Of a DNA stretch of 64,000 bases, positions 1-9,333 are shown one piece after another; within the stretch, counting starts at the first letter, position 1; each line of letters begins with the position of its first letter. Made by a program: the position numbers and the translations under genes. Origin of the DNA: Allobosea sp. (lineage in GTDB: Bacteria > Pseudomonadota > Alphaproteobacteria > Rhizobiales > Beijerinckiaceae); assembly GCF_017308015.1 (NCBI RefSeq), contig NZ_JAFKFW010000019.1, forward strand, positions 38,775 through 102,774, written 5' to 3'. Below the pieces are notes generated by a model, which did not search any database, was not told the DNA's origin, and saw nothing but the letters and a program-made list of their open reading frames with translations.

Positions 1-293
1 GCGATCAAGGCCTCGATAGCCTCGGGCTGGAAGAACGGGTCGCGCCCGGCCGCCCCGGAATATTGAACACTCATCATATCGCCCCAGACGATCGCGTCAT
101 CGGCCAGGACGAGGCCGATGCTCAACGAACGCGAAGGCATCCGGATCGAGGTGAAGCCCGGTGTCAGGACCTGGCCGACATAGCAGGCGCCGTCCTGAAC
201 GGCGCCGGCACGAATAGCGGCCTGGTCGTCGTAGAAGAAGCTGCCATTGCCTCGGGCCAGGATGACATCTTTGATTTTGAATCGGCTCGTCAT
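1..293 (-). CDS. mal: 3-methylaspartate ammonia-lyase, N-terminal 97 residues (runs off left edge)
   Basis: Expected to catalyse reversible deamination of (2S,3S)-3-methylaspartate to mesaconate in the cytoplasm. Reading the minus strand from the ATG at 293 gives an open frame to the window edge. It matches the MAL N-terminal domain of the enolase superfamily as I remember it: a start resembling M-x-I-x-D-V-L, then FFYDDQAAIRAGA, TPGFTSIR and the near-signature VQYSGAAGRDP. The catalytic barrel lies outside the window, so activity cannot be judged. It follows the CitE-like gene by 56 bases on the same strand and is probably co-transcribed with it. Family identification rests on memory of the clostridial enzyme but the run of matches is long. 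No strong ribosome-binding site is visible. Confidence 0.82.
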   Translation of the reverse strand, partial: MTSRFKIKDVILARGNGSFFYDDQAAIRAGAVQDGACYVGQVLTPGFTSIRMPSRSLSIGLVLADDAIVWGDMMSVQYSGAAGRDPFFQPEAIEALI

Positions 294-349
294 AGCGGAT
301 GTCCGTCAGGAAGATCGGGGCGGTCGGTTCTGGGACACGGGATGCATCT

Positions 350-1282
350 TCAGCGTATGCTTCGGTCACCGGGAGCCGGATTCCCGTTGCCGGCCGGGCT
401 CGCCCCGTAGCTGCGGGCCGCCGCCAGTATCTGGCAGGCGCGACGCAGCACCGGCGCATCGATCATTCTTCCATCGAGACCGACCGTGCCGGAACCGGCG
501 CGTTGTGCAGCCTCCGCCGCTTCGACCACCCGCGCAGCCTGCTCGATAAGGGATGACGACGGCGCGAAACCATGATTTGCGATCGCGACCTGCGCGGGAT
601 GGATGCAGAGAGTCCCGCGGAGCCCCGCCTCGCGCGAGCGACGGACGGACGCGCCATAGGCCTCGGTGTCCCTGAACTCGGTAATGGAGCCGAGAAGACC
701 AAGCGGCCAGACATTCTTCAGGGCCGCAGCCAGCACCAGCCGATGCTTGATCGCAACGATCGTCTCGGAATCCGGCTCGCAGAGGAGATCCGCCGCCAGA
801 TCCTCGTCGCCGCAGGCCATGGCGACGACGCGGGGAGATGACGCAATTTCTTCCATCCGCGCAACGCCGCCGGCCGTCTCGATCAGTGGCACGAGCCTGG
901 TGTGCCCCTCGGGCAAACCGAGCCGCGCCTCGGATTCGGCAACGGCCTCGCCGATCAGGGCCAGGTGCTCGGCGCTCGATGCTTTCGCAACCACGAGCGC
1001 GCTGACCTGCGCGGAGACCGACGCTTCGATATCGCGGATGGCCAGCGGCAGCGGCCGGTTGATCCGCACGAGAACGTTTCGACCAGCCGAGCTCAGATCT
1101 GCGACCATGCCCGGAACCTGCGCCCGGGCATCCGCCTTCTGCCCGGGCAGGATCGCGTCTTCCAGGTCGATTATGATGGCATCGGCGTCAGAAATCCTGG
1201 CTTTTGCCACGAAGCGGGCCTTGTTCGCCGGAACGAACAGCAGGGAGCGCCAGAATATGGTATTATGGCACTCTAACGACAT
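350..1282 (-). CDS. CitE/HpcH-family acyl-CoA lyase (citramalyl-CoA or malyl-CoA lyase-like)
   Basis: Family members cleave beta-hydroxyacyl-CoA thioesters such as citryl-, malyl- or citramalyl-CoA in an Mg-dependent aldol reaction. The 310-residue product has the expected order: RSLLFVPANK near the start, DLEDAILP (about residue 40), VRINRPL, LIETAGGVARMEE carrying a conserved Glu, then ACGDEDLAADLL, and near the C-terminus CIHPAQ. Length is normal for a single CitE domain. The ATG at 1282 is chosen because AGAGGA precedes it; an upstream TTG would add 13 residues with no family similarity. Next to a methylaspartate ammonia-lyase, a citramalyl-CoA lyase giving pyruvate and acetyl-CoA is the natural guess, but malyl-CoA or another substrate is possible. 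Confidence 0.85.
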   Translation of the reverse strand: MSLECHNTIFWRSLLFVPANKARFVAKARISDADAIIIDLEDAILPGQKADARAQVPGMVADLSSAGRNVLVRINRPLPLAIRDIEASVSAQVSALVVAKASSAEHLALIGEAVAESEARLGLPEGHTRLVPLIETAGGVARMEEIASSPRVVAMACGDEDLAADLLCEPDSETIVAIKHRLVLAAALKNVWPLGLLGSITEFRDTEAYGASVRRSREAGLRGTLCIHPAQVAIANHGFAPSSSLIEQAARVVEAAEAAQRAGSGTVGLDGRMIDAPVLRRACQILAAARSYGASPAGNGNPAPGDRSIR

Positions 1283-1502
1283 CCAAACATAAATCCTCTC
1301 AAGCTGCCAACAATTGCTCAAATTAATTTAGAATTTTGCTCTAAAATCTGATCTCTCAACAAGTAAACATGGTCATCTTCTGAATAAATACTTTATATCA
1401 TTGATAACAACACTCTGAAGAAAAAGCTGTGCTCCCGCTGCGCGATATCGCTCCACGAATGCTGCACATCGATGGCGAGGCTGTTCGAGCGGCTCATGCG
1501 AC
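1283..1502 (-). promoter_or_regulatory. AT-rich gap with operator-like inverted repeat before the citE-like gene
   Basis: This 220-base gap separates the ThDP enzyme from the CitE gene. By direct count, bases 1321-1380 hold 17 G or C of 60, far below the neighbouring coding DNA. It contains TTTAGA (1327-1332), seven bases, then TCTAAA (1340-1345), an exact inverted repeat of operator type. Inference: an internal promoter with a dimeric-regulator site for the citE-mal pair. No regulator can be assigned; LysR-type or GntR-type proteins are the usual binders of such repeats in catabolic clusters. Confidence 0.45.
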
Positions 1503-3047
1503 TTAGACCATGACTTCGATGAGGAACGGGCCCGAACGGCGCAGACTCGCCTGCAGAAGATCGATCAGCCGCTCCGCTGTCTCGGCGCGCGCGCCTTCGA
1601 CACCCATTCCCCCTGCAAGCTTGACCCAGTCGAGATCCGGGCTGCCGATATCGAGCATCGCGCGCGCCGTCTTGCCGGGATTGAGCGCCCCCACATTGAT
1701 GAGCTCGCCCTCGAGGCTGGCATAGGACCGGTTGGAGAAGATGATTGTCGTGACGTCGAGCGTTTCGCGCGCCTGAGTCCAGAGCGCCTGCAGCGTATAC
1801 ATTCCGCTGCCATCGGCCTGGAGGGAGATGACCTTGCGGCCGGGGCAGGCGATGGCGGCCCCGGTCGCCAGAGGCATGCCGATGCCGATGGAACCGCCAT
1901 TGAGCTGCAACCAATCATGTGGCGGGGCCGAGAAGCTCGCCGGGTAGATCGCACGTCCGCAACTGATGCCCTCGTCAACGACGATCGCGCCTTCCGGAAT
2001 CAGCGCAGCAATGGCCGCGCCAATGCTCTCGACGGTGATCTTCCCGGCAGGCAGCGCGGCGGGAGCTTGCGGCGGCACAAGCGCCGCCCGCCCTGGGGCA
2101 TTCAGTTCGCTAGCGAGACGCGCGAGCGCATCCACACAATCCTCGGCCGGCGAGGCCAGCACGTGGGTTGAGCTGCCGGGAGGAGCGATCAGGCTGGGCA
2201 TTCCCGGATAGGCAAAAAACGCCACGGGCTGCTGAACGCCGACGAGGATGATATGCTTGAACGCACTCAATTCCTGCAGGGCCAGTTGGAGCGGATAGGG
2301 CAACCGCCTGATCGGCGCCCTGCCGGCGCCACGCTCCATGCGCGGATTCGAACTTGGCGCCAGGAGCTTCGCCCCCGTGGCTGCGGCAATGCGGCTTGCG
2401 ACATCGAGCGGAGCGGCGCGCAACGCCCGTCCCCCCAAGAAGATCAGTGTCGGCTCGCCGGATCTCAGGGCTTTCGCTGCGGCGGAGACCGCAGCCGCAT
2501 CGACGATCCCAGCGGGCTTCACTGGACGGGGGGCAGCCACGCCGGTCGCGTCGTTCCAGGCCGTATCGGCCGGCAGGATCAGCGTCGCGACCCCGCCGGG
2601 AGCCGACAGGGCGGCGGCGACAGCATCGGCCCCGTCATCCGCGACGTAGCGTGCATCGGTCGATGTTCTCACCCAGTCGGACATCGGGCGAGCCACCCCT
2701 TCGACGTCCGAGGTGAGCGGCGCATCGTAGCTGCGATGATGAACCGCGTGATCTCCGACAATATTGACCAGAGGCGTCCTGGCTTTTCGGGCATTGTGGA
2801 GGTTGGCCAACGCATTGCCCAGCCCCGGCCCGAGATGCAGCAAGGTCGCTGCAGGCTTGTCGGTCATGCGGCCATAACCGTCGGCGGCACCGGATGCGAC
2901 CCCTTCGAACAGCGTCAACACGCAGCGCATCCCGCCGACGCGATCCAGCGCGGCAACGAAGTGCATCTCCGATGTACCGGGATTGGCGAAACATGTGTCG
3001 ACCCCGCCCTTGACCAGGGTTTGGACCAGACTTTCAGCGCCGTTCAT
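1503..3047 (-). CDS. ThDP-dependent enzyme of the acetolactate synthase / benzoylformate decarboxylase group
   Basis: A 514-residue, three-domain thiamine-diphosphate enzyme. The N-terminal Pyr domain has FANPGTSEMHF and the cofactor-activating Glu48 in LFEGVASGAADGYGRM. A central TH3-like domain follows, and the C-terminal PP domain has ADGSG (about 411) with the metal-ligand Asn near 439 in FSNRSY. Family members decarboxylate or carboligate 2-oxo acids. The sequence is closer to the stand-alone decarboxylase-like COG0028 proteins than to biosynthetic IlvB, and there is no small regulatory subunit nearby. It lies between an M20 deacylase and the CitE/MAL pair, so it probably handles a 2-oxo acid in the same catabolic route. 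The exact substrate is not readable. Start ATG at 3047 lacks a clear Shine-Dalgarno site. Confidence 0.8.
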   Translation of the reverse strand: MNGAESLVQTLVKGGVDTCFANPGTSEMHFVAALDRVGGMRCVLTLFEGVASGAADGYGRMTDKPAATLLHLGPGLGNALANLHNARKARTPLVNIVGDHAVHHRSYDAPLTSDVEGVARPMSDWVRTSTDARYVADDGADAVAAALSAPGGVATLILPADTAWNDATGVAAPRPVKPAGIVDAAAVSAAAKALRSGEPTLIFLGGRALRAAPLDVASRIAAATGAKLLAPSSNPRMERGAGRAPIRRLPYPLQLALQELSAFKHIILVGVQQPVAFFAYPGMPSLIAPPGSSTHVLASPAEDCVDALARLASELNAPGRAALVPPQAPAALPAGKITVESIGAAIAALIPEGAIVVDEGISCGRAIYPASFSAPPHDWLQLNGGSIGIGMPLATGAAIACPGRKVISLQADGSGMYTLQALWTQARETLDVTTIIFSNRSYASLEGELINVGALNPGKTARAMLDIGSPDLDWVKLAGGMGVEGARAETAERLIDLLQASLRRSGPFLIEVMV

Positions 3048-3115
3048 CTTGCGGACCCACGATCAGAAGGAATGCAGCCGGACGCCATCTCCCGAAGGGG
3101 ACAGCGATGCCGTCG

Positions 3116-3148
3116 GCGGGAGGCGGCCAATGCCAAGCTGCCTCCCGC
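3116..3148. other. Hairpin between M20 and ThDP-enzyme genes
   Basis: GCGGGAGGC (3116-3124) and GCCTCCCGC (3140-3148) form a perfect 9-bp stem with a 15-base loop in the 111-base gap. There is no T-run on either side, so it is not a convincing intrinsic terminator. It may tune mRNA stability between the two genes. Confidence 0.35.
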
Positions 3149-3158
3149 GCTCGCCGGC

Positions 3159-4421
3159 CTATTGGTCGGCCGACTGTGTCAGGTAGTCGTAGGAGGACAG
3201 CAGATGAACGCGCAGCACGGCGAGGTACTCCGCTTCCGTCACGTGCTCGTCGGCACGCCCCATGGTGACCGGCGAAGGCCCGTAGAGATAAGCGGGAACA
3301 TTTTCCCAGCGCCAGTAACGGCTGTCCGAACCGCCGAGCGACGACATCGGGATCGGGCGCTTGCCCGTCGCGGCCTCGGCGTTGTCGCGAATGATCGTCA
3401 TCATCAGGCTTTCGGGGTCCGCCAGGCTGCCTGGATAGGAGTGGGTTGCGATCAGCTCCCATTCGGCGTCGTTCTTGGTGCAAACCTCGACGACTTCTTC
3501 ATGCACCTTGTCGAAATCGATGCCGACCGGAATGCGGATATCGATCTCCACCGAGCATTCGTGCGGAATCTGGTTGACCTTCAGCCCGCCCTTCACGACG
3601 CCTGGATTGAACGTCATGCTGCGCACGACGTCGGCGGCGCCCGGGCCCATGCCGGCTTCCAATGTGGCGATCGCCTCAGGGGTCGTCAGCAACCGCGCAA
3701 TGTTCTCCGGCAGCGTCGCCGGACGCATGTGAAGCCGCCGGTCGAGCTCGGAGATGATCGTCGCGATGATCTTGTTGGGATTGCGGGACAGGTGCGGATA
3801 GCCGCCATGGCCCCCCGGCGCCCGAACCGTGATCAGATATCGGCGGGTTCCCTTTTCCATGAAGCGGACATTGTTGAGCCCCGAGGGTTCGCCGTTCAGG
3901 CAGCAATCGCCGAGAACCTCATCCCGCAATGTCTCGAGCAGCCAGCGGGTGCCGAGCGCTCCGCCGGTCTGTTCGTCGGAGACGGCGGTCAGGGTGAGTT
4001 TACCGGGAAGCTTGTCCCTGATGTCGTGCAGCCAGGCGTAGGTGAGGACCGCTGCGGCCGTTCCGGCCTTCATGTCCGCCGCACCCCGGCCGAATATCTT
4101 GCCGTCACGACGATCGCCCGACCAGCCGGTCTCGTCCAAGGGCGGGAAGACATCGATATGACCATTGAGAACGAGATGCTTACCGCTGCGGCCGCCCTCG
4201 AAGGTGCCGACGACATTGGGAAGATGGGGAGCGGCCGCCTCGAAGCGCCAGGGAGCGCCGGCCTTGTCCAGATAAGCACCGATATGGTCGGCCGCCTCGG
4301 TCGTATCCCCCGGCGGGTTGGCGGAACGGGACCGCAGGAAGCCCCGCAGAAAGGCAATGGCTTCTTCGGCGTCGGTCTCGAGACGTTGAACCAGGGCTTC
4401 GCGAACGGGATCGCTCATCAT
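3159..4421 (-). CDS. M20-family ArgE/DapE-like deacylase
   Basis: A 420-residue zinc-dependent amidohydrolase of the ArgE/DapE/ACY1 group, expected to remove an acyl group from an N-acyl amino acid. Visible motifs: NGHIDV (zinc His about 88), GRGAADMKAG (bridging Asp about 117), SDEQTGG (general-base Glu about 150), LNGEPS (ligand Glu about 178), GGHGGYPH in the lid domain and GGSDSRYW near the end. The residue after the general base is Gln where M20 enzymes usually have the second Glu ligand. I am unsure whether this is normal for the subfamily. The start at 4421 has AAAGGA five bases upstream; ORF codons before it show no family similarity. Beside an amino-acid importer it probably releases the imported amino acid. 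Confidence 0.85.
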   Translation of the reverse strand: MMSDPVREALVQRLETDAEEAIAFLRGFLRSRSANPPGDTTEAADHIGAYLDKAGAPWRFEAAAPHLPNVVGTFEGGRSGKHLVLNGHIDVFPPLDETGWSGDRRDGKIFGRGAADMKAGTAAAVLTYAWLHDIRDKLPGKLTLTAVSDEQTGGALGTRWLLETLRDEVLGDCCLNGEPSGLNNVRFMEKGTRRYLITVRAPGGHGGYPHLSRNPNKIIATIISELDRRLHMRPATLPENIARLLTTPEAIATLEAGMGPGAADVVRSMTFNPGVVKGGLKVNQIPHECSVEIDIRIPVGIDFDKVHEEVVEVCTKNDAEWELIATHSYPGSLADPESLMMTIIRDNAEAATGKRPIPMSSLGGSDSRYWRWENVPAYLYGPSPVTMGRADEHVTEAEYLAVLRVHLLSSYDYLTQSADQ

Positions 4422-4877
4422 GTCATTCCTTTTGTCGTGCCGTAAAACGATCTGCGGGGGGCCGTGAATTCGCGTGCTCGCCGCAATCCGGTGATTTTCC
4501 GATATGCCGGGGGTCAGCTTCCGGTCTTCCGGTACGGCCGGGAGGACGCGAAGCTCGCAAGCATCGCTGCGATCCCCGCTTCCCGCGATCCCGTCCGGGA
4601 ACTCCTTCGGCACCCGCTCGTCTCATCGCAGACTGGGCGCTCCCCGGAGCGCCGAGGTCCGCGCCTTCCGCGATACCCAACTCGCCCAAGATCGGCTGGA
4701 TAGGCGGCCTGGAGCCTCCCGGGCAAAGATGGCGCTGTCATCCGCAGGCCGCAGCAGGATGACCAGGTACCGTGAGCATCCGAGATTTGCGTCATATCCA
4801 GAGCGTTCATGATGAGTTTGAGCGGCAACAACCGGGCCTGCGGGTGACGACCGTCATCCGCAGGCCCGTCGAGTCGC
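4422..4877. other. Gap of 456 bases: hairpin after the binding-protein gene, otherwise no recognisable gene
   Basis: Bases 4834-4849 and 4854-4869 form a 16-bp stem with one G-T pair and a 4-base loop, 9 bases after the stop of the binding-protein gene. It probably terminates or stabilises the transporter transcript, though the following T-run is poor. Several short open frames cross 4440-4830, but none shows a family I recognise, a ribosome site or a consistent frame. The stretch is either a leader for the M20 gene or decayed sequence. Confidence 0.4.
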
Positions 4878-5717
4878 TCAGTTCAGCGGCTTGCTGTTGA
4901 CCATGGGCACCGGGATGGCGTTCGCTTCCATCCCCCATTTCGCCAGGATGGCCTTGTATGTGCCGTCCGCCATGATGTCTTTCAGCGCGCCGGCAATGCC
5001 ATCGCGAAGCGCAGCATCCTTCTTGGTAAAGGCCATGCCGAGCAGCGCCTCGGTGAAGGGCTTGCCGATTGCGATGAAGGTGTTCGGTTCGGTCTGGAGC
5101 ATGTAGGGAACCGTCTCGCTTCCCTGCGCCGCAGCATCGATGCGCCCCTGCCGGAGCTGTGTCCTGGCATCAGCCGAGCCTTCGGTGCCGACGATCTTGA
5201 TCGCAGGCTTGCCGGCGGCCTCACAATGGGCCGCGCTCCACTTTGCGATTTCGGCCGGGAAGGTCGTGCGCCGGCTGGACCCCACCGATTTGCCGCAGAG
5301 ATCCGTTTCCGACTTGATCTCGGCTGCGCGATCGGCCCGGGTATAGAACTGTGCGCCCGACGTCAGATAATTCACGAAATCGAGCGTCTCGCGCCGGCTC
5401 GGAAGATCGAACATGCCACTCATGATCATGTCGACACGTCCGGTCGCCAGGGAGTTGAGCTGCTGCTCAAAGCCGATTTCTTCCCATTTGAGCGTCAGAC
5501 CCAGCCTTTTACCGAGCGCCTCTCCGATATCGATATCGATGCCGACGAGCTTACCCGTCTTGGTGTCCTTGAACTCCATCGGCGGATACAACGGCGCATT
5601 GGCGATGGTGATCGTCTTCCGGTCCAGTTGCGGCGCGGAAGCGCTCTGGGCAAATGCCGGCATACTCATCGACGAGAGCAGAACGCAAGCGGCGCCATAG
5701 ACAGCAATTTTCATCAT
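4878..5717 (-). CDS. Amino-acid ABC transporter periplasmic binding protein (SBP_bac_3)
   Basis: A 279-residue solute-binding protein of the polar amino-acid family, exported to the periplasm. A signal peptide is visible (Lys near the start, hydrophobic core, Ala-Phe-Ala-Gln cleavage region about residue 24). The mature part has the family pattern: ITIANAPLYPPMEF, GIDIDIGEALGKRLGL, and GRVDMIMSGMFDLPSRRETLDFVNYL. LCGKSVG and a later Cys could form a disulfide. The ligand cannot be read off, but this family binds amino acids and related zwitterions. It is the first gene after the ATPase (29 bases) and shares its strand; an AGGAGGA site lies just before the ATG. Confidence 0.9.
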   Translation of the reverse strand: MMKIAVYGAACVLLSSMSMPAFAQSASAPQLDRKTITIANAPLYPPMEFKDTKTGKLVGIDIDIGEALGKRLGLTLKWEEIGFEQQLNSLATGRVDMIMSGMFDLPSRRETLDFVNYLTSGAQFYTRADRAAEIKSETDLCGKSVGSSRRTTFPAEIAKWSAAHCEAAGKPAIKIVGTEGSADARTQLRQGRIDAAAQGSETVPYMLQTEPNTFIAIGKPFTEALLGMAFTKKDAALRDGIAGALKDIMADGTYKAILAKWGMEANAIPVPMVNSKPLN

Positions 5718-5746
5718 GTTCCTCCTTGGTGAACTTGTTTTCCAGA

Positions 5747-6529
5747 TCAGGATCTGACCGCGGCGATGAACTCTCTGGTTCTCTGCTGCGCCGGATTTTC
5801 GAGCACCGCGCGCGCATCGCCGATCTCCACGATGCGGCCATGATCCATGAAGGCCACGCGATGGCCGACCTCGCGCGCGAAACCCAACTCATGCGTCACG
5901 ACGATCATGGTCATGCCGCTGGCCGCGAGATCACGAATGACTTTCAGCACGTCTCCCACCAGTTCGGGATCGAGCGCCGAAGTTGGCTCGTCGAACAGGA
6001 TCAGTTGCGGGCGCATCGCCAAAGCACGCGCGATCGCCACGCGCTGCTGCTGGCCGCCCGATAGCTCGGCGGGATAGGCATCCCGCTTTGCAGCCAGGCC
6101 GACGCTGTCCAGCAAGGCGAGAGCGTGCTCGCGGGCGGCCTTGGGATTTTCGTTGAGAACACGGATAGGCCCGACAGCAATATTCTCTGCGGCCGTGAGA
6201 TGCGGGAACAGGTTGAACCTCTGGAAGACCATCGCCGTCTTGCGGCGCTGGCGAGCCAGCTCAGCATCCTGCAGCGGGTAGAGCTTGTCCGCCGACCGGC
6301 GATAACCAATCATCTCCCCGTCGATAAAAATTGCCCCGCCTTCAATGCGCTCGAGCAGATTGATGCAACGCAGCAAGGTGCTCTTGCCCGAACCGGATGG
6401 GCCGATGACACACAGGACTTCGCCGCGTTCGACGGAAAGGCTGACATCCTTCAGAGCCTCGAAATGACCGAAACTCTTTTTGGCGCCGGAGACGACGACG
6501 AGAGGCTCGCCAGTTTTGGAGTGCTTCAT
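5747..6529 (-). CDS. Amino-acid ABC transporter ATP-binding protein (GlnQ/HisP type)
   Basis: A 260-residue ATPase that powers the adjacent importer from the cytoplasmic face. All motifs are intact: Walker A GPSGSGKST (about 43-51), Q-loop FQRFNLFPH, ABC signature LSGGQQQR, Walker B LILFDEPTSALD and switch His in VTHE. The start at 6529 gives the usual N-terminus; the longer frame to 6589 would overlap the permease gene and lacks similarity. It sits 10 bases after the permease stop and 29 before the binding-protein gene, a standard permease-ATPase-SBP operon. Confidence 0.93.
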   Translation of the reverse strand: MKHSKTGEPLVVVSGAKKSFGHFEALKDVSLSVERGEVLCVIGPSGSGKSTLLRCINLLERIEGGAIFIDGEMIGYRRSADKLYPLQDAELARQRRKTAMVFQRFNLFPHLTAAENIAVGPIRVLNENPKAAREHALALLDSVGLAAKRDAYPAELSGGQQQRVAIARALAMRPQLILFDEPTSALDPELVGDVLKVIRDLAASGMTMIVVTHELGFAREVGHRVAFMDHGRIVEIGDARAVLENPAQQRTREFIAAVRS

Positions 6530-6539
6530 GATGCATCCA

Positions 6540-7385
6540 TCACTTCTTATGGTTGATTGGCCGGATGCCACGATCGAAATGGCGCTCAATCCAGATCTGT
6601 ATCAAGCTCAGAATCGTCACGACGATGACGTACCAGATAGCCGATACGATCAGCAGCTCGATTACACGATTATTCGCGTAGTAAACTGTTTGAGCACTAT
6701 AAAGTATCTCGCTGAATTGAATAACGCTAGCCAGGGATGTAAGCTTCACCATCCCGATGAATTCGTTCCCGATTGGAGGAACAATTACACGCATTGCCTG
6801 AGGCATGATGATGTAGCGAAGCATCATCATGCGCGTCATGCCGATCGACTGCGCTGCTTCGTATTGGCCGCGGTCGACAGAAAGCAGGCCTGCCCGAACG
6901 ACCTCAGCCGTGAAGGCACCTTGCTGAATCCCAAGCCCGAGAAGAGCCGCGAGGAACGGCGTCATCACCGAAACGGTCTTGACTGAGAACAGCCCCGGAA
7001 TCCCAAAATTGGGGAATATCAACGCCAGGTTGAACCAGATCAGAAGCTGCAGAAGAGCAGGGACGGCCCGAAAGAACCAGATATAACCGATCGCGACATT
7101 TCTCAGGACGAGATTGTCGGAAAGCCGCATGATGGCGAATATGACGCCGAGAGCGATGCCGACCACCATGGCGAGAATGGCCATGACGACGGTGTTCACC
7201 AACCCGGTCAATATTGCAGGGAATGTCAGAAATTCCGCGACATAGCTCCACTCGATCTGACCGACGGCAAAAGCGTGGGCGATCCCAGCGAGAGCAAGAC
7301 AAATGCAGAGTACAGCAAATATTCTACCGTAGTTCCTCGGCGTTACAATGGTTAAGCCGCTTATGTCGTAGGATGTTTTCTGCAT
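6540..7385 (-). CDS. Amino-acid ABC transporter permease (HisM/GlnP type)
   Basis: A 281-residue inner-membrane permease. The N-terminal segment about 21-41 is followed by the HisM-type core (TVVMAILAMVVGIALGVIFA; IWFFRAVPALLQLLIW; QQGAFTAEVVRAGLLSVDRGQ) and the EAA loop GQYEAAQSIGMTRMMMLRYIIMPQ. Only one permease is present, so the channel is probably a homodimer. A GGGGAGAG site precedes the ATG at 7385. Base composition is strikingly low in GC for this window: bases 6661-6720 contain 21 G or C of 60. That fits recent acquisition. The 145-base gap to the LysR gene probably holds the operon promoter. Confidence 0.9.
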   Translation of the reverse strand: MQKTSYDISGLTIVTPRNYGRIFAVLCICLALAGIAHAFAVGQIEWSYVAEFLTFPAILTGLVNTVVMAILAMVVGIALGVIFAIMRLSDNLVLRNVAIGYIWFFRAVPALLQLLIWFNLALIFPNFGIPGLFSVKTVSVMTPFLAALLGLGIQQGAFTAEVVRAGLLSVDRGQYEAAQSIGMTRMMMLRYIIMPQAMRVIVPPIGNEFIGMVKLTSLASVIQFSEILYSAQTVYYANNRVIELLIVSAIWYVIVVTILSLIQIWIERHFDRGIRPINHKK

Positions 7386-7530
7386 ATCTCTCCCCGGACG
7401 GATCGGCACGAGCCGCCCAAACCAGTTACGGTTGTTCCGTACTTTCAAAAGCCGGCAGGCTCAGTTGGGGAGAGTGTCTCGATTTTTTATCTGTTCGCAA
7501 AATACGGATTCTTACTGGGGGGTATAGGCG

Positions 7531-8493
7531 CTATCTATACCCTGTAACCTCCTCACTCAGACGCCCGAGCCACAGGGAGTTCCGGACAAGTTCGGCGGAA
7601 ACGTCGACAGCCAGCCGTGCCACCTCGGCTGTGGCCCGCGAGCTTGTATGGAGGGGATTGTTGGCGAGGTAGATCGTGCGGCGGAGAGCGGGGTCCTGAA
7701 TGGGAACGAGCATCAGATCTCCGCGTGCGACTTCACGCTGAACGGCTGTCTGCGGAAGGATCGAGAAGCCGGAGCCTCGCAGAACCAGATCCTTGATCGG
7801 GTTCAACGAGTCCATCTCGACAGCGATATTGAACGTCAATTGATGTTCCCGCGCACAGCGGTCGATCAGCGTTCTCAGCCCATGGCTGGGACTCGGCAGG
7901 ATCAACTCGAGATTCTGGCAGTCGCGGAAGGTAATAGGAACCTGGGCGACCCCCCCGGGACCGGCAGGATCCGGCCAGCAATCCGGCGCGGTGACGAGAT
8001 ACAACTCCTCGGTCAGGATCGGCAACGCGTTGAGCCGCGGGTTATGGATATCGTAGAGCATCCCGAGATCGATCGACCCTTCGAGCAGCCAGCGTTCGAT
8101 GTAGCCGCTCATGGCGTCCATTGCGCGAAAGCGGATTTCGGGGAACTCGATCCGGATGGTTTCCGCCAGCGGCACCGAGAGAACCATACTCACGGAACTC
8201 GGCACACCGAAGCGAACCGCTCCCCGAACCGTACGCGCCAGATTGCTCAGGTCGGCGACAAGGGTCTCGGTTGCGGTGACGATCGGCCCGCCGCGCTCAA
8301 CCAGGAACTGACCGGCCTCGGTCAAGGAGACGCCCAAGGGCGACCGATGAAGCAGTTGAATGCCGAGCTCTGCTTCGAGCTTGATGATGTACTGGCTCAG
8401 CGAAGGCTGAGCAATTCCGATCGTTCGCGCGGCCGCGGAAAGGGAACCGGTTTCCGCGATGACCAGGAAGTATCGAAGCTGACGGATGTCCAT
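7531..8493 (-). CDS. LysR-family transcriptional regulator
   Basis: A 320-residue LysR-type regulator. The N-terminal winged HTH (about 1-60) has DIRQLRYFLVIAETGSLSAAA and the recognition region IAQPSLSQYIIKLE, followed by LLHRSPLGVSLTEAG. The remainder is the periplasmic-binding-fold effector domain. The gene lies upstream of the ABC importer on the same strand instead of divergently, separated by 145 bases, so it may be the first gene of the operon or regulate the promoter in the gap. The inducer is probably the imported compound or a breakdown product; this is inference from position. Confidence 0.92.
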   Translation of the reverse strand: MDIRQLRYFLVIAETGSLSAAARTIGIAQPSLSQYIIKLEAELGIQLLHRSPLGVSLTEAGQFLVERGGPIVTATETLVADLSNLARTVRGAVRFGVPSSVSMVLSVPLAETIRIEFPEIRFRAMDAMSGYIERWLLEGSIDLGMLYDIHNPRLNALPILTEELYLVTAPDCWPDPAGPGGVAQVPITFRDCQNLELILPSPSHGLRTLIDRCAREHQLTFNIAVEMDSLNPIKDLVLRGSGFSILPQTAVQREVARGDLMLVPIQDPALRRTIYLANNPLHTSSRATAEVARLAVDVSAELVRNSLWLGRLSEEVTGYR

Positions 8494-8559: not shown

Positions 8560-9020
8560 TCATGCGCCGTGGTTCCGTCTGCGCCGGCTCGGCAGCGCTG
8601 ACAACCTGCAGCAGCGACGGGGATGCCCATCGCGCACGCAATGCTGGGGCACCGCAGAGCAGATGACGGCGAAAGCCCTGCCGCTGACGCCGTGCACGAT
8701 GACGATCCATTCGCAATCACGGATTTGTCGCGGCGGAGAGCTGGGACCGACATAGGTATCGCCGCGCGCGCCGCCGGGAATCTTTGCGAAGCTTTTCCCA
8801 TCGTGGGAAACGGTGCCGCCACCGTGGCTATAAGCCGGAGCCTGATGGTCGACCATGCAAAGGTCCAGCAACCTGGTGCCGGCAGGAATGCCGCCAACGG
8901 ATACTCGCAAGTTGGTCGGAGAGAATTTTCGCGCTTGCGGAAAGAGTGCGACCCGTCTCGGGAGCAAGCCGAGGAGCGTGCGGGCATCAGTGAATGGCAC
9001 ATCGGCAAGCTGGAAGGCGG
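8560..9020 (-). pseudogene. YbhB/YbcL-type PEBP (Raf-kinase-inhibitor-like) protein remnant
   Basis: An open minus-strand frame (8560-9099) carries a stretch resembling phosphatidylethanolamine-binding-fold proteins: IPAGTRLLDLCMVDHQAP, then SHGGGTVSHDGKS, GDTYVGPSSPP and DCEWIVIVHGVSG. It reads like the central and C-terminal part of a YbcL-like protein. The upstream part (9020-9099) runs antisense through an integrase fragment and has no PEBP similarity. No signal peptide is visible, and the C-terminal tail after GRAF loses similarity. It is most likely a broken gene with a displaced 5' end. The call rests on motif memory and should be searched. Confidence 0.5.
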
Positions 9021-9028
9021 CCGGGGCG

Positions 9029-9193
9029 GTCACCGAGGCCGAGGACGCCAGCGCCGGGCTCGACACGATCCGCGGCTCGATCGGCCATGCCCAGGCCACG
9101 ACGACGGCGCGTTATTCACGCGGCGCCATCGGCAAGAGCCGCAAGGTCGCACAGGCGCGAGTCGCGCTCCGCGGCGAGCAGAACAACCACTGA
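9029..9193 (+). pseudogene. C-terminal remnant of a tyrosine-recombinase integrase
   Basis: The last 54 codons of a plus-strand frame read IRGSIGHAQATTTARYSRG followed by a basic tail. This matches the end of phage-type integrases, where the box-II region GH-x-x-x-x-T-x-x-Y holds the nucleophilic Tyr (here in TARYSR). The Arg and His-x-x-Arg parts of the catalytic set are absent upstream, so only a fragment remains. It stops 65 bases from the 3' end of tRNA-Gly(CCC), the usual place of an integrase gene. It marks an old integration event. Confidence 0.65.
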
Positions 9194-9258
9194 ACAGGGG
9201 TTGGGGAACGCGAATTTAGCGGCAGGCCGCCACAACATGCTGAAGCTTCAAGGGAAAT

Positions 9259-9333
9259 TGGAGCGGGCGATCGGGATCGAACCGACGACATTCAGCTTGG
9301 GAAGCTGACGTTCTACCACTGAACTACGCCCGC
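9259..9333 (-). tRNA. tRNA-Gly (anticodon CCC)
   Basis: The minus strand folds as a full cloverleaf. The acceptor GCGGGCG pairs with CGCCCGC (9263-9269). The D arm is TAGTTCAGTGGTAGA, the anticodon stem TCAGC/GCTGA encloses loop TTCCCAA (anticodon CCC), and the T arm is GGTTCGATCCC. Discriminator T is followed by an encoded CCA (9259-9261). It reads GGG glycine codons. The 3' half is a classic integrase target, and an integrase fragment lies directly beside it. Confidence 0.96.

Follow-up and report, generated by a model that had tools for sequence, protein, structure and literature searches.

What does a bacterium break down with methylaspartate ammonia-lyase (MAL) when no glutamate mutase is found in its genome? 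3-Methylaspartate is best known as an intermediate formed from glutamate by a B12 enzyme, so an operon that consumes it but has no glutamate mutase gene points to a different compound as its source. The question is raised by a 64,000-nucleotide stretch of Allobosea sp. DNA (the window; contig NZ_JAFKFW010000019.1, positions 38,775 to 102,774; G000:C27:38775-102774 in our numbering, in which L-numbers denote the loci examined). At positions 1-8493 it carries eight collinear minus-strand genes that include the start of a MAL gene; the left flank of the window is covered by locus L002 of the same genome. We propose, with a probability of roughly 0.45 and hence at less than even odds, that these genes belong to a nine-gene mosaic operon for the uptake and complete breakdown of a 3-methylaspartate compound with an acyl or other substituent on its amino group.

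For the substrate, the single reactions and the part of the thiamine diphosphate (ThDP) enzyme we infer the following course. The ATP-binding cassette (ABC) importer would take up the substituted 3-methylaspartate compound, the M20 enzyme would hydrolyse its amide to release free 3-methylaspartate, and MAL would remove ammonia to yield mesaconate. A class I fumarase, encoded elsewhere, would hydrate mesaconate to (S)-citramalate, which the class III CoA-transferase would convert to citramalyl-CoA with succinyl-CoA as the donor, and the CitE-type enzyme would split citramalyl-CoA into acetyl-CoA and pyruvate. For the ThDP enzyme, decarboxylation of a 2-oxo acid derived from the other half of the substrate is the most likely role.

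Operon organisation

The genes, in the order LysR, permease, ATPase, solute-binding protein (SBP), M20, ThDP, CitE, MAL and CoA-transferase, are as follows; starts were chosen by us among the listed start codons.

7531 to 8493, minus strand: LysR-type regulator, first of the collinear set (PF03466, 8.7e-34; PF00126, 2.2e-21)
6540 to 7385 (open reading frame to 7448), minus strand: ABC permease of the polar-amino-acid type (PF00528, 2.1e-19)
5747 to 6529 (open reading frame to 6589), minus strand: ABC ATPase of the polar-amino-acid type (PF00005, 1.2e-34)
4878 to 5717, minus strand: SBP, family 3 (PF00497, 4.5e-31)
3159 to 4421 (open reading frame to 4613), minus strand: M20 (ArgE/DapE-like) metallo-deacylase (PF01546, 1.6e-24; PF07687, 2.3e-17)
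1503 to 3047, minus strand: ThDP enzyme of the PRK07586 family, benzoylformate-decarboxylase-like (NF005760, 766 bits against a cut-off of 363)
350 to 1282 (open reading frame to 1321), minus strand: CitE/HpcH-type CoA-ester lyase, proposed (S)-citramalyl-CoA lyase (PF03328, 8.1e-32)
1 to 293, minus strand: N-terminal 97 codons of MAL (TIGR01502, 598 bits against a cut-off of 286)
L002:17785-19068, left of the window in the same genome: whole MAL, 427 amino acids
L002:16625-17788, left of the window: class III CoA-transferase, 387 amino acids (PF02515, 1.1e-103)

Profile scans of the window proteins give each of the eight genes a clear family match, with best E-values from 2e-19 (permease) to <1e-200 (ThDP enzyme), far beyond chance, and so confirm the families named in the original prediction, which had been made from the letters of the window. 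With the chosen starts the gaps are 145 nt (LysR-permease), 10 nt (permease-ATPase), 29 nt (ATPase-SBP), 456 nt (SBP-M20), 111 nt (M20-ThDP), 220 nt (ThDP-CitE) and 56 nt (CitE-MAL). The CoA-transferase gene directly follows MAL and overlaps its stop by 4 nt. It is counted as the ninth and last gene since the next one is a convergent flavoprotein gene (TIGR00275). Of the three functions that had been expected left of the window, the CoA-transferase is thus found just there, and neither a hydratase nor glutamate mutase follows. The LysR protein is 31% identical to the LysR beside MAL in L005.

The methylaspartate back end

The MAL protein lies above the cut-off of the curated equivalog model TIGR01502, and in an alignment with 1kko and 1kcz, read by eye against 1kko, it keeps 12 of 13 inspected positions, which we take to be those of the pocket and of catalysis: Q73, F170, Q172, H194, D238, E273, D307, Q329, K331, Y356, C361 and L384 are retained and T360 is replaced by Ser. 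On the model and residue checks it is predicted to be a methylaspartate ammonia-lyase (EC 4.3.1.2). The CitE protein falls in the HpcH/HpaI family, with 147 bits against the curated RipC_Ccl cut-off of 375 and a match to the CitE model that is also sub-cut-off, while the class III CoA-transferase has 207 bits against the cut-off of 700 for NF041294 (succinyl-CoA:mesaconate CoA-transferase). Elsewhere in the genome a single class I fumarase (C18:105976-106806; PF05681, 8.2e-79) is a candidate mesaconase, and two proteins of the mesaconyl-CoA hydratase family exceed the Pfam cut-off (71 and 54 bits); these genes lie on other contigs. The MAL, CoA-transferase and CitE families support the mesaconate/citramalyl-CoA branch suggested earlier, and we infer an ordinary methylaspartate/citramalyl-CoA module, in which 3-methylaspartate would pass through mesaconate and citramalyl-CoA to pyruvate and acetyl-CoA.

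The same back end is also found with glutamate mutase: in Ensifer adhaerens, Rhizobium sullae and Gemmobacter, glutamate mutase genes lie ahead of MAL, CoA-transferase and CitE, with a gene of the class I fumarase type. Ordinary glutamate catabolism via glutamate mutase and methylaspartate is nevertheless highly improbable in Allobosea sp., and already contradicted, because the glutamate mutase epsilon family (PF06368) has no match at E 0.001 in this genome, which is scored 100% complete (GlmS was not searched separately); the separate importer and deacylase of the operon also argue against it. The absence of a detected glutamate mutase implies that the back end is fed by something other than glutamate.

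Importer, binding protein and deacylase

The nearest relatives of the importer belong to operons of rhizobia and their relatives that contain an ArgH-like lyase, MmgE/PrpD and/or a polysaccharide-deacetylase-type hydrolase; in these, the permease is 60-75%, the ATPase 61-72% and the SBP 41-64% identical. A further importer copy with a polysaccharide-deacetylase-type hydrolase is found on contig C15 of the Allobosea genome. On a Bosea vestrisii plasmid, a 46% identical M20 gene stands directly ahead of permease, ATPase and SBP genes (67, 66 and 53%), followed by LysR and MmgE/PrpD. The operon type with ArgH-like and MmgE/PrpD genes recurs, as in L192:2753-11300 and also in L190, L191, L193, L194, L200 and L202, with LysR, a second ArgH, the ABC importer, MmgE/PrpD and/or the polysaccharide-deacetylase-type hydrolase and sometimes agmatinase; its substrate is perhaps an N-substituted aspartate. 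The iminodisuccinate cluster was considered as a model for these operons and rejected on two tests: the one MmgE/PrpD protein tested, from A. salinitolerans, is distant from iminodisuccinate epimerase and no closer to it than to cis-aconitate decarboxylase (108 against 110 bits), and the single ArgH examined lies above the cut-off of the ordinary ArgH model.

Ectoine was rejected as the substrate of the window operon, as its ATPase remains below the EhuA cut-off (296 against 345 bits) and its permease below those of EhuD (123 against 205) and EhuC (123 against 197). The SBP keeps the Arg of the SRRETLDF stretch and has Gly in the alignment column in which AncCDT-1, AncQR and 6svf carry Asp. 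In amino-acid binders this Asp contacts the alpha-amino group, so the replacement would suit a ligand whose alpha-amino group is not free. The M20 protein reaches the cut-off of none of the 25 NCBIfam models listed. Its relatives occur in 18 of 397 genomes at E 1e-90, including its own, and several of the ten regions read hold peptide-type ABC genes or additional amide hydrolases. The importer ligand would be an N-acyl or N-substituted acidic amino acid, and the import of such a compound, as first put forward, stands as a fair proposal.

The ThDP enzyme

The ThDP enzyme passes PRK07586 (NF005760), a family that is named acetolactate synthase in databases, and fails the acetolactate synthase models, for example that of the large subunit (TIGR00118, 106 bits against 538). 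Its closest solved relatives in phmmer searches are benzoylformate decarboxylases (best PDB match 131 bits); it stays below their equivalog PRK07092 (200 bits against 493), and the His of the benzoylformate decarboxylase LHSAAG stretch is retained as LHLGPG. The earlier remark that this enzyme does not belong to the known methylaspartate pathway is upheld. The family is common, being present in 91 of 397 genomes at E 1e-80 (its own included), and the gene alone therefore says little.

Three copies are encoded by the Allobosea genome, each near an amide hydrolase: the M20 enzyme of the window, an amidohydrolase-like protein below its cut-off, and an HDAC-type deacylase. The 70% identical paralogue, on contig C54, is preceded by the amidohydrolase-like protein (TIGR01891, below cut-off) and an ADI/DDAH-family protein, and is followed by carbamoylase, GabT, GabD, second carbamoylase and aldehyde dehydrogenase genes. 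By its gene content this cluster would suggest decarboxylation of a ureido- or guanidino-2-oxo acid to an aldehyde en route to 4-aminobutyrate. The cluster (L118, C54:163000-182900) also has a polyamine-type ABC importer and is partly matched in L120 and L121, which have in common importer, amidohydrolase-like, ADI-like (by eye), ThDP and GabT-like aminotransferase genes. The copy beside the HDAC-type deacylase is 54% identical, and the same arrangement is seen on two Azospirillum plasmids. Among other plasmids, the gene lies in an FGGY-kinase cluster in Sagittula and Paracoccus and has no evident partner in Roseomonas, Pseudochrobactrum and Caballeronia.

The only scheme seen that places the ThDP enzyme directly after the lyase is one in which the MAL substrate is a larger 3-substituted aspartate: CitE would then yield acetyl-CoA and a larger 2-oxo acid, to be decarboxylated by the ThDP enzyme. 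The adjoining genes and the kinship with benzoylformate decarboxylase speak for it. Against it, the MAL positions, including L384, are those of 3-methylaspartate enzymes except for T360, and none of the 80 nearest MAL genes (see below) is linked to such a ThDP gene; we regard this scheme as quite unlikely.

Comparison of MAL loci

A scan of genome contigs gave 114 MAL relatives, of which the best 80 by likeness to the window MAL were kept. This set is redundant, consisting mostly of Mesorhizobium with several near-identical strains, and a contig end truncates some of the loci. Neighbours were counted within 9 kb by identity and length thresholds (at least 40% identity for the ThDP enzyme and at least 38% for M20). 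Together with ten loci from plasmids and twelve taken from other genome samples, some of them from the same records, the total is 102. CoA-transferase is present in 73 of the 80 loci and adjoins MAL in 72; a succinate semialdehyde dehydrogenase (SSADH)-like aldehyde dehydrogenase is found in 61, CitE in 55, LysR in 53, class I fumarase in 46, a class III aminotransferase in 25, a DoeB-like deacylase in 15, a DoeA-like hydrolase in three and EhuA in two. Glutamate mutase occurs in none of the 80, in three of the ten plasmid loci and in one of the twelve others.

A ThDP or M20 gene of the window type is absent from all 102 loci within 9 kb at these thresholds, and the recurrence of the whole gene set, by which the original prediction was to stand or fall, was not found. 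Parts of it do recur, namely the MAL-CoA-transferase pair, the M20-importer pair on the Bosea plasmid, and weaker M20-type genes before MAL. The latter comprise a 31% identical M20-type hydrolase directly before MAL in L041, which the annotation (L141) gives as two M20 pieces after an M24 piece, and a hippurate-hydrolase-like M20-type protein directly before MAL in L055-L058. A 28% M20-type protein also occurs in L053. MAL itself was found in 3 of 150 related genomes, the other two being 37-38% identical and without CoA-transferase or CitE neighbours, in 4 of 385 class-sample genomes and in 6 of 398 phylum-sample genomes, own genome included in each. Two sets of distant MAL genes were also seen. 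A plasmid of Rhizobium sp. 007 (L146) carries two near genes for an octopine/nopaline-dehydrogenase-family protein, a methyltransferase, a PhnF-annotated regulator and ABC proteins. One genome (G538; L177-L180) holds four copies (38-40%), two of them with one in-frame stop, and no CoA-transferase or CitE lies near them at the neighbour thresholds.

A MAL tree of 88 rows groups the window sequence with Bradyrhizobium, Microvirga, Shinella and some Mesorhizobium rows in one clade of 15 (support 100/97). Nine of the 14 other rows have the SSADH-like dehydrogenase in the locus, and in two more, the plasmids of Mesorhizobium AR07 and 131-3-5, a CitE-type/dehydrogenase/fumarase block lies about 47-54 kb from MAL. 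This distribution, together with the lack of glutamate mutase in the 80 loci, argues for a semialdehyde route as in rhizobia: the ThDP enzyme would act as a decarboxylase that forms 3-methylaspartate 4-semialdehyde, and a dehydrogenase from elsewhere would oxidise this to 3-methylaspartate for the back end. Decarboxylation to an aldehyde also makes sense in the surroundings of the C54 paralogue. However, the window operon has no dehydrogenase or aminotransferase, the best dehydrogenase of the genome is only 36% identical to the rhizobial one, and the required 2-oxo acid, 4-amino-3-methyl-2-oxoglutarate, is to our knowledge not an established metabolite. We consider this route unlikely and retain hydrolysis of an N-substituted 3-methylaspartate as the preferred source.

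Other front ends of the MAL cassette

The rhizobial gene order is MAL-CoA-transferase-CitE-LysR-dehydrogenase-fumarase-Lrp-aminotransferase, with LysR on the other side in one locus. EhuBCDA genes lie immediately upstream of such an operon in Mesorhizobium 131-2-5, and a DoeB-like gene stands just before MAL in 13 of the 80 loci, five of them near-identical. The rhizobial EhuC, EhuD and EhuA proteins pass the curated models and EhuB falls marginally short (188 against 191 bits); of the enzymes tested, the DoeA-like (423 bits, cut-off 613) and the DoeB-like (213 bits, cut-off 403) are both below. The ectoine-type sets (Ehu, DoeA-like, DoeB-like, Lrp, SSADH-like and aminotransferase) vary among L142:5417-18963, L007, L012, L017, L060, L141 and L143. 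Among plasmid records 142 match the dehydrogenase; six reach 70% identity, and these six and no others have a MAL of at least 60%.

According to PMC5924519, ectoine is converted to aspartate by DoeA, DoeB, Atf and Ssd under an AsnC/Lrp regulator. By analogy, the same route with one additional methyl group would yield 3-methylaspartate, which suggests a C-methylated ectoine-like source in rhizobia. Against such a source, DoeB-like, DoeA-like and EhuA genes are confined to 15, 3 and 2 of the 80 loci, the next two plasmid dehydrogenase relatives opened (H94 and H95) are outside ectoine clusters, and 15 of the 24 MAL genomes searched hold a DoeA over the cut-off elsewhere; L007, L010, L011 and L083 are the only MAL loci that themselves contain a DoeA-like gene.

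In a third kind of surroundings, MAL and CoA-transferase lie near an amidase (L075), which is joined by an oligopeptide permease in L080 and by both such a permease and an M17 aminopeptidase in L072. Family scans covered the L075 amidase and the L072 permease and aminopeptidase, and the branched-chain-type ABC genes of L075 were recognised by eye. Judged by their genes, these loci may release 3-methylaspartate from peptides or amides.

The supply of 3-methylaspartate from non-glutamate sources rests on more loci than the window operon. It is tempting to see 3-methylaspartate as a hub for several undescribed glutamate-mutase-free routes in Alphaproteobacteria, with a portable back end of MAL, class III CoA-transferase, CitE and often mesaconase, and with exchangeable front ends: an ectoine-type one in nodule bacteria, one of amidase, peptide permease or M20, and the importer-deacylase-decarboxylase set of the window for an N-acyl or N-substituted 3-methylaspartate. 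We hold this generalisation tentatively, as possible rather than probable. If true, its ectoine-type front end points to C-methylated ectoine or to 3-methyl-2,4-diaminobutyrate, formed in nodules or close to them, and ectoine-like catabolism with an extra methyl in rhizobia would put a name to a new metabolite of nodules or soil. One possible lead is rhizolotine, a tetrahydropyrimidine from Lotus nodules. The literature matches listed include no description of a rhizobial MAL operon without glutamate mutase; a table in PMC4417242 places a putative 3-methylaspartate ammonia-lyase/glutamate mutase gene of Neorhizobium galegae two genes from a fumarate hydratase gene.

Origin of the operon

G+C content is about 0.53-0.62 in the importer genes and about 0.61-0.69 in the enzyme genes; one 500-base bin, across the ThDP-CitE gap, is at 0.53, and the 4-kb window bins from 8001 on are at 0.66-0.69. 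The nearest relatives of CitE are those of Shinella L026 (62%, quick tree) and of the Mesorhizobium AR07 plasmid block (63%). Since the importer, the ThDP enzyme and MAL have kin in different contexts and G+C is uneven, the operon looks mosaic. Sequence relationships suggest that a rhizobial MAL cassette was combined with parts from elsewhere, which would replace the ectoine-type rhizobial front end.

The same features would also suit a chance assembly of horizontally gained pieces, in which the importer with M20, the ThDP enzyme and the CitE-MAL-CoA-transferase group each serve a different compound; so would the two wide gaps between SBP and M20 (about 456 nt) and between ThDP and CitE (220 nt), and the lack of a second genome with the set. 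Such an assembly is at odds with frames that are all open and collinear, with the 4-nt overlap of MAL and CoA-transferase and with a chemically sensible gene order, and we think it unlikely as well.

tRNA-Gly(ccc) at 9259-9333 (minus strand), near the LysR end, was considered as the att site of an island and rejected: no end copy with up to three mismatches was found in L002 or L004, and a repeat search gave nothing convincing. Plus-strand open reading frames around 8623-9308, taken by eye for an integrase or recombinase tail, were dropped because Pfam and PHROGs scans of frames 8623-9219 and 8855-9193 give no support.

Evidence for and against the proposed substrate

In favour of an operon for an N-substituted 3-methylaspartate, MAL, CoA-transferase and CitE, often with class I fumarase, form a recurring cassette that is also found behind glutamate mutase. 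Also in its favour are the MAL model match and retained residues, the Gly of the SBP, the lack of a close rhizobial-type semialdehyde dehydrogenase in the genome (best 36%), M20 beside the same type of importer on the Bosea plasmid, the M20-type genes before MAL (L041/L141 and L055-L058), the amide hydrolases near all three ThDP copies and the amidases near MAL (L072, L075 and L080). Several points weigh on the other side. The ThDP enzyme has at most a putative place in the pathway, and the full gene set is found in no other genome searched. The ligand argument is that of one residue in an alignment, in which one of the two 6h30 domains has Asp one column off. CoA-transferase and CitE pass none of the named enzyme models listed, so that their substrates are predictions; the class I fumarase is unlinked to the operon; and the two mesaconyl-CoA-hydratase-family proteins make either order of hydration and CoA transfer possible.

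Comparison with known systems

Itaconate degradation proceeds through Ict, Ich and Ccl/RipC. The CitE-type lyase of the operon resembles the last of these, as a sub-cut-off match to RipC_Ccl; entry into the operon's pathway would be through MAL and not through itaconyl-CoA. Benzoylformate decarboxylase is the best solved relative of the ThDP enzyme and shares its His, and differs in the level of similarity (131 bits only, and 200 against 493 bits for PRK07092).

The published mesaconate route, as given by Kronen and Berg 2015 (PMC4682846), consists of mesaconase, succinyl-CoA:citramalate CoA-transferase and citramalyl-CoA lyase. The window operon is like this methylaspartate pathway of glutamate breakdown in MAL and probably in the CoA-transferase and CitE steps, with a class I fumarase available in the genome; in contrast to that pathway, it has importer, M20 and ThDP genes in place of glutamate mutase, and the fumarase is unlinked. 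With the haloarchaeal methylaspartate cycle (PMC5592240) the operon shares MAL and a class III CoA-transferase related to succinyl-CoA:mesaconate CoA-transferase (207 bits, cut-off 700), whereas no glutamate mutase was found in the window genome and the operon contains no mesaconyl-CoA hydratase. Relatives of the ectoine uptake and degradation system (EhuABCD, DoeA/EutD, DoeB/EutE, Ssd, Atf and AsnC; PMC5924519) are present in some rhizobial MAL loci, but the DoeA-like and DoeB-like proteins tested are below the curated cut-offs and the window operon has none of these genes. In the material searched, the joining of an importer, an M20 deacylase and a ThDP enzyme to a methylaspartate back end, in a genome without detected glutamate mutase, is new.

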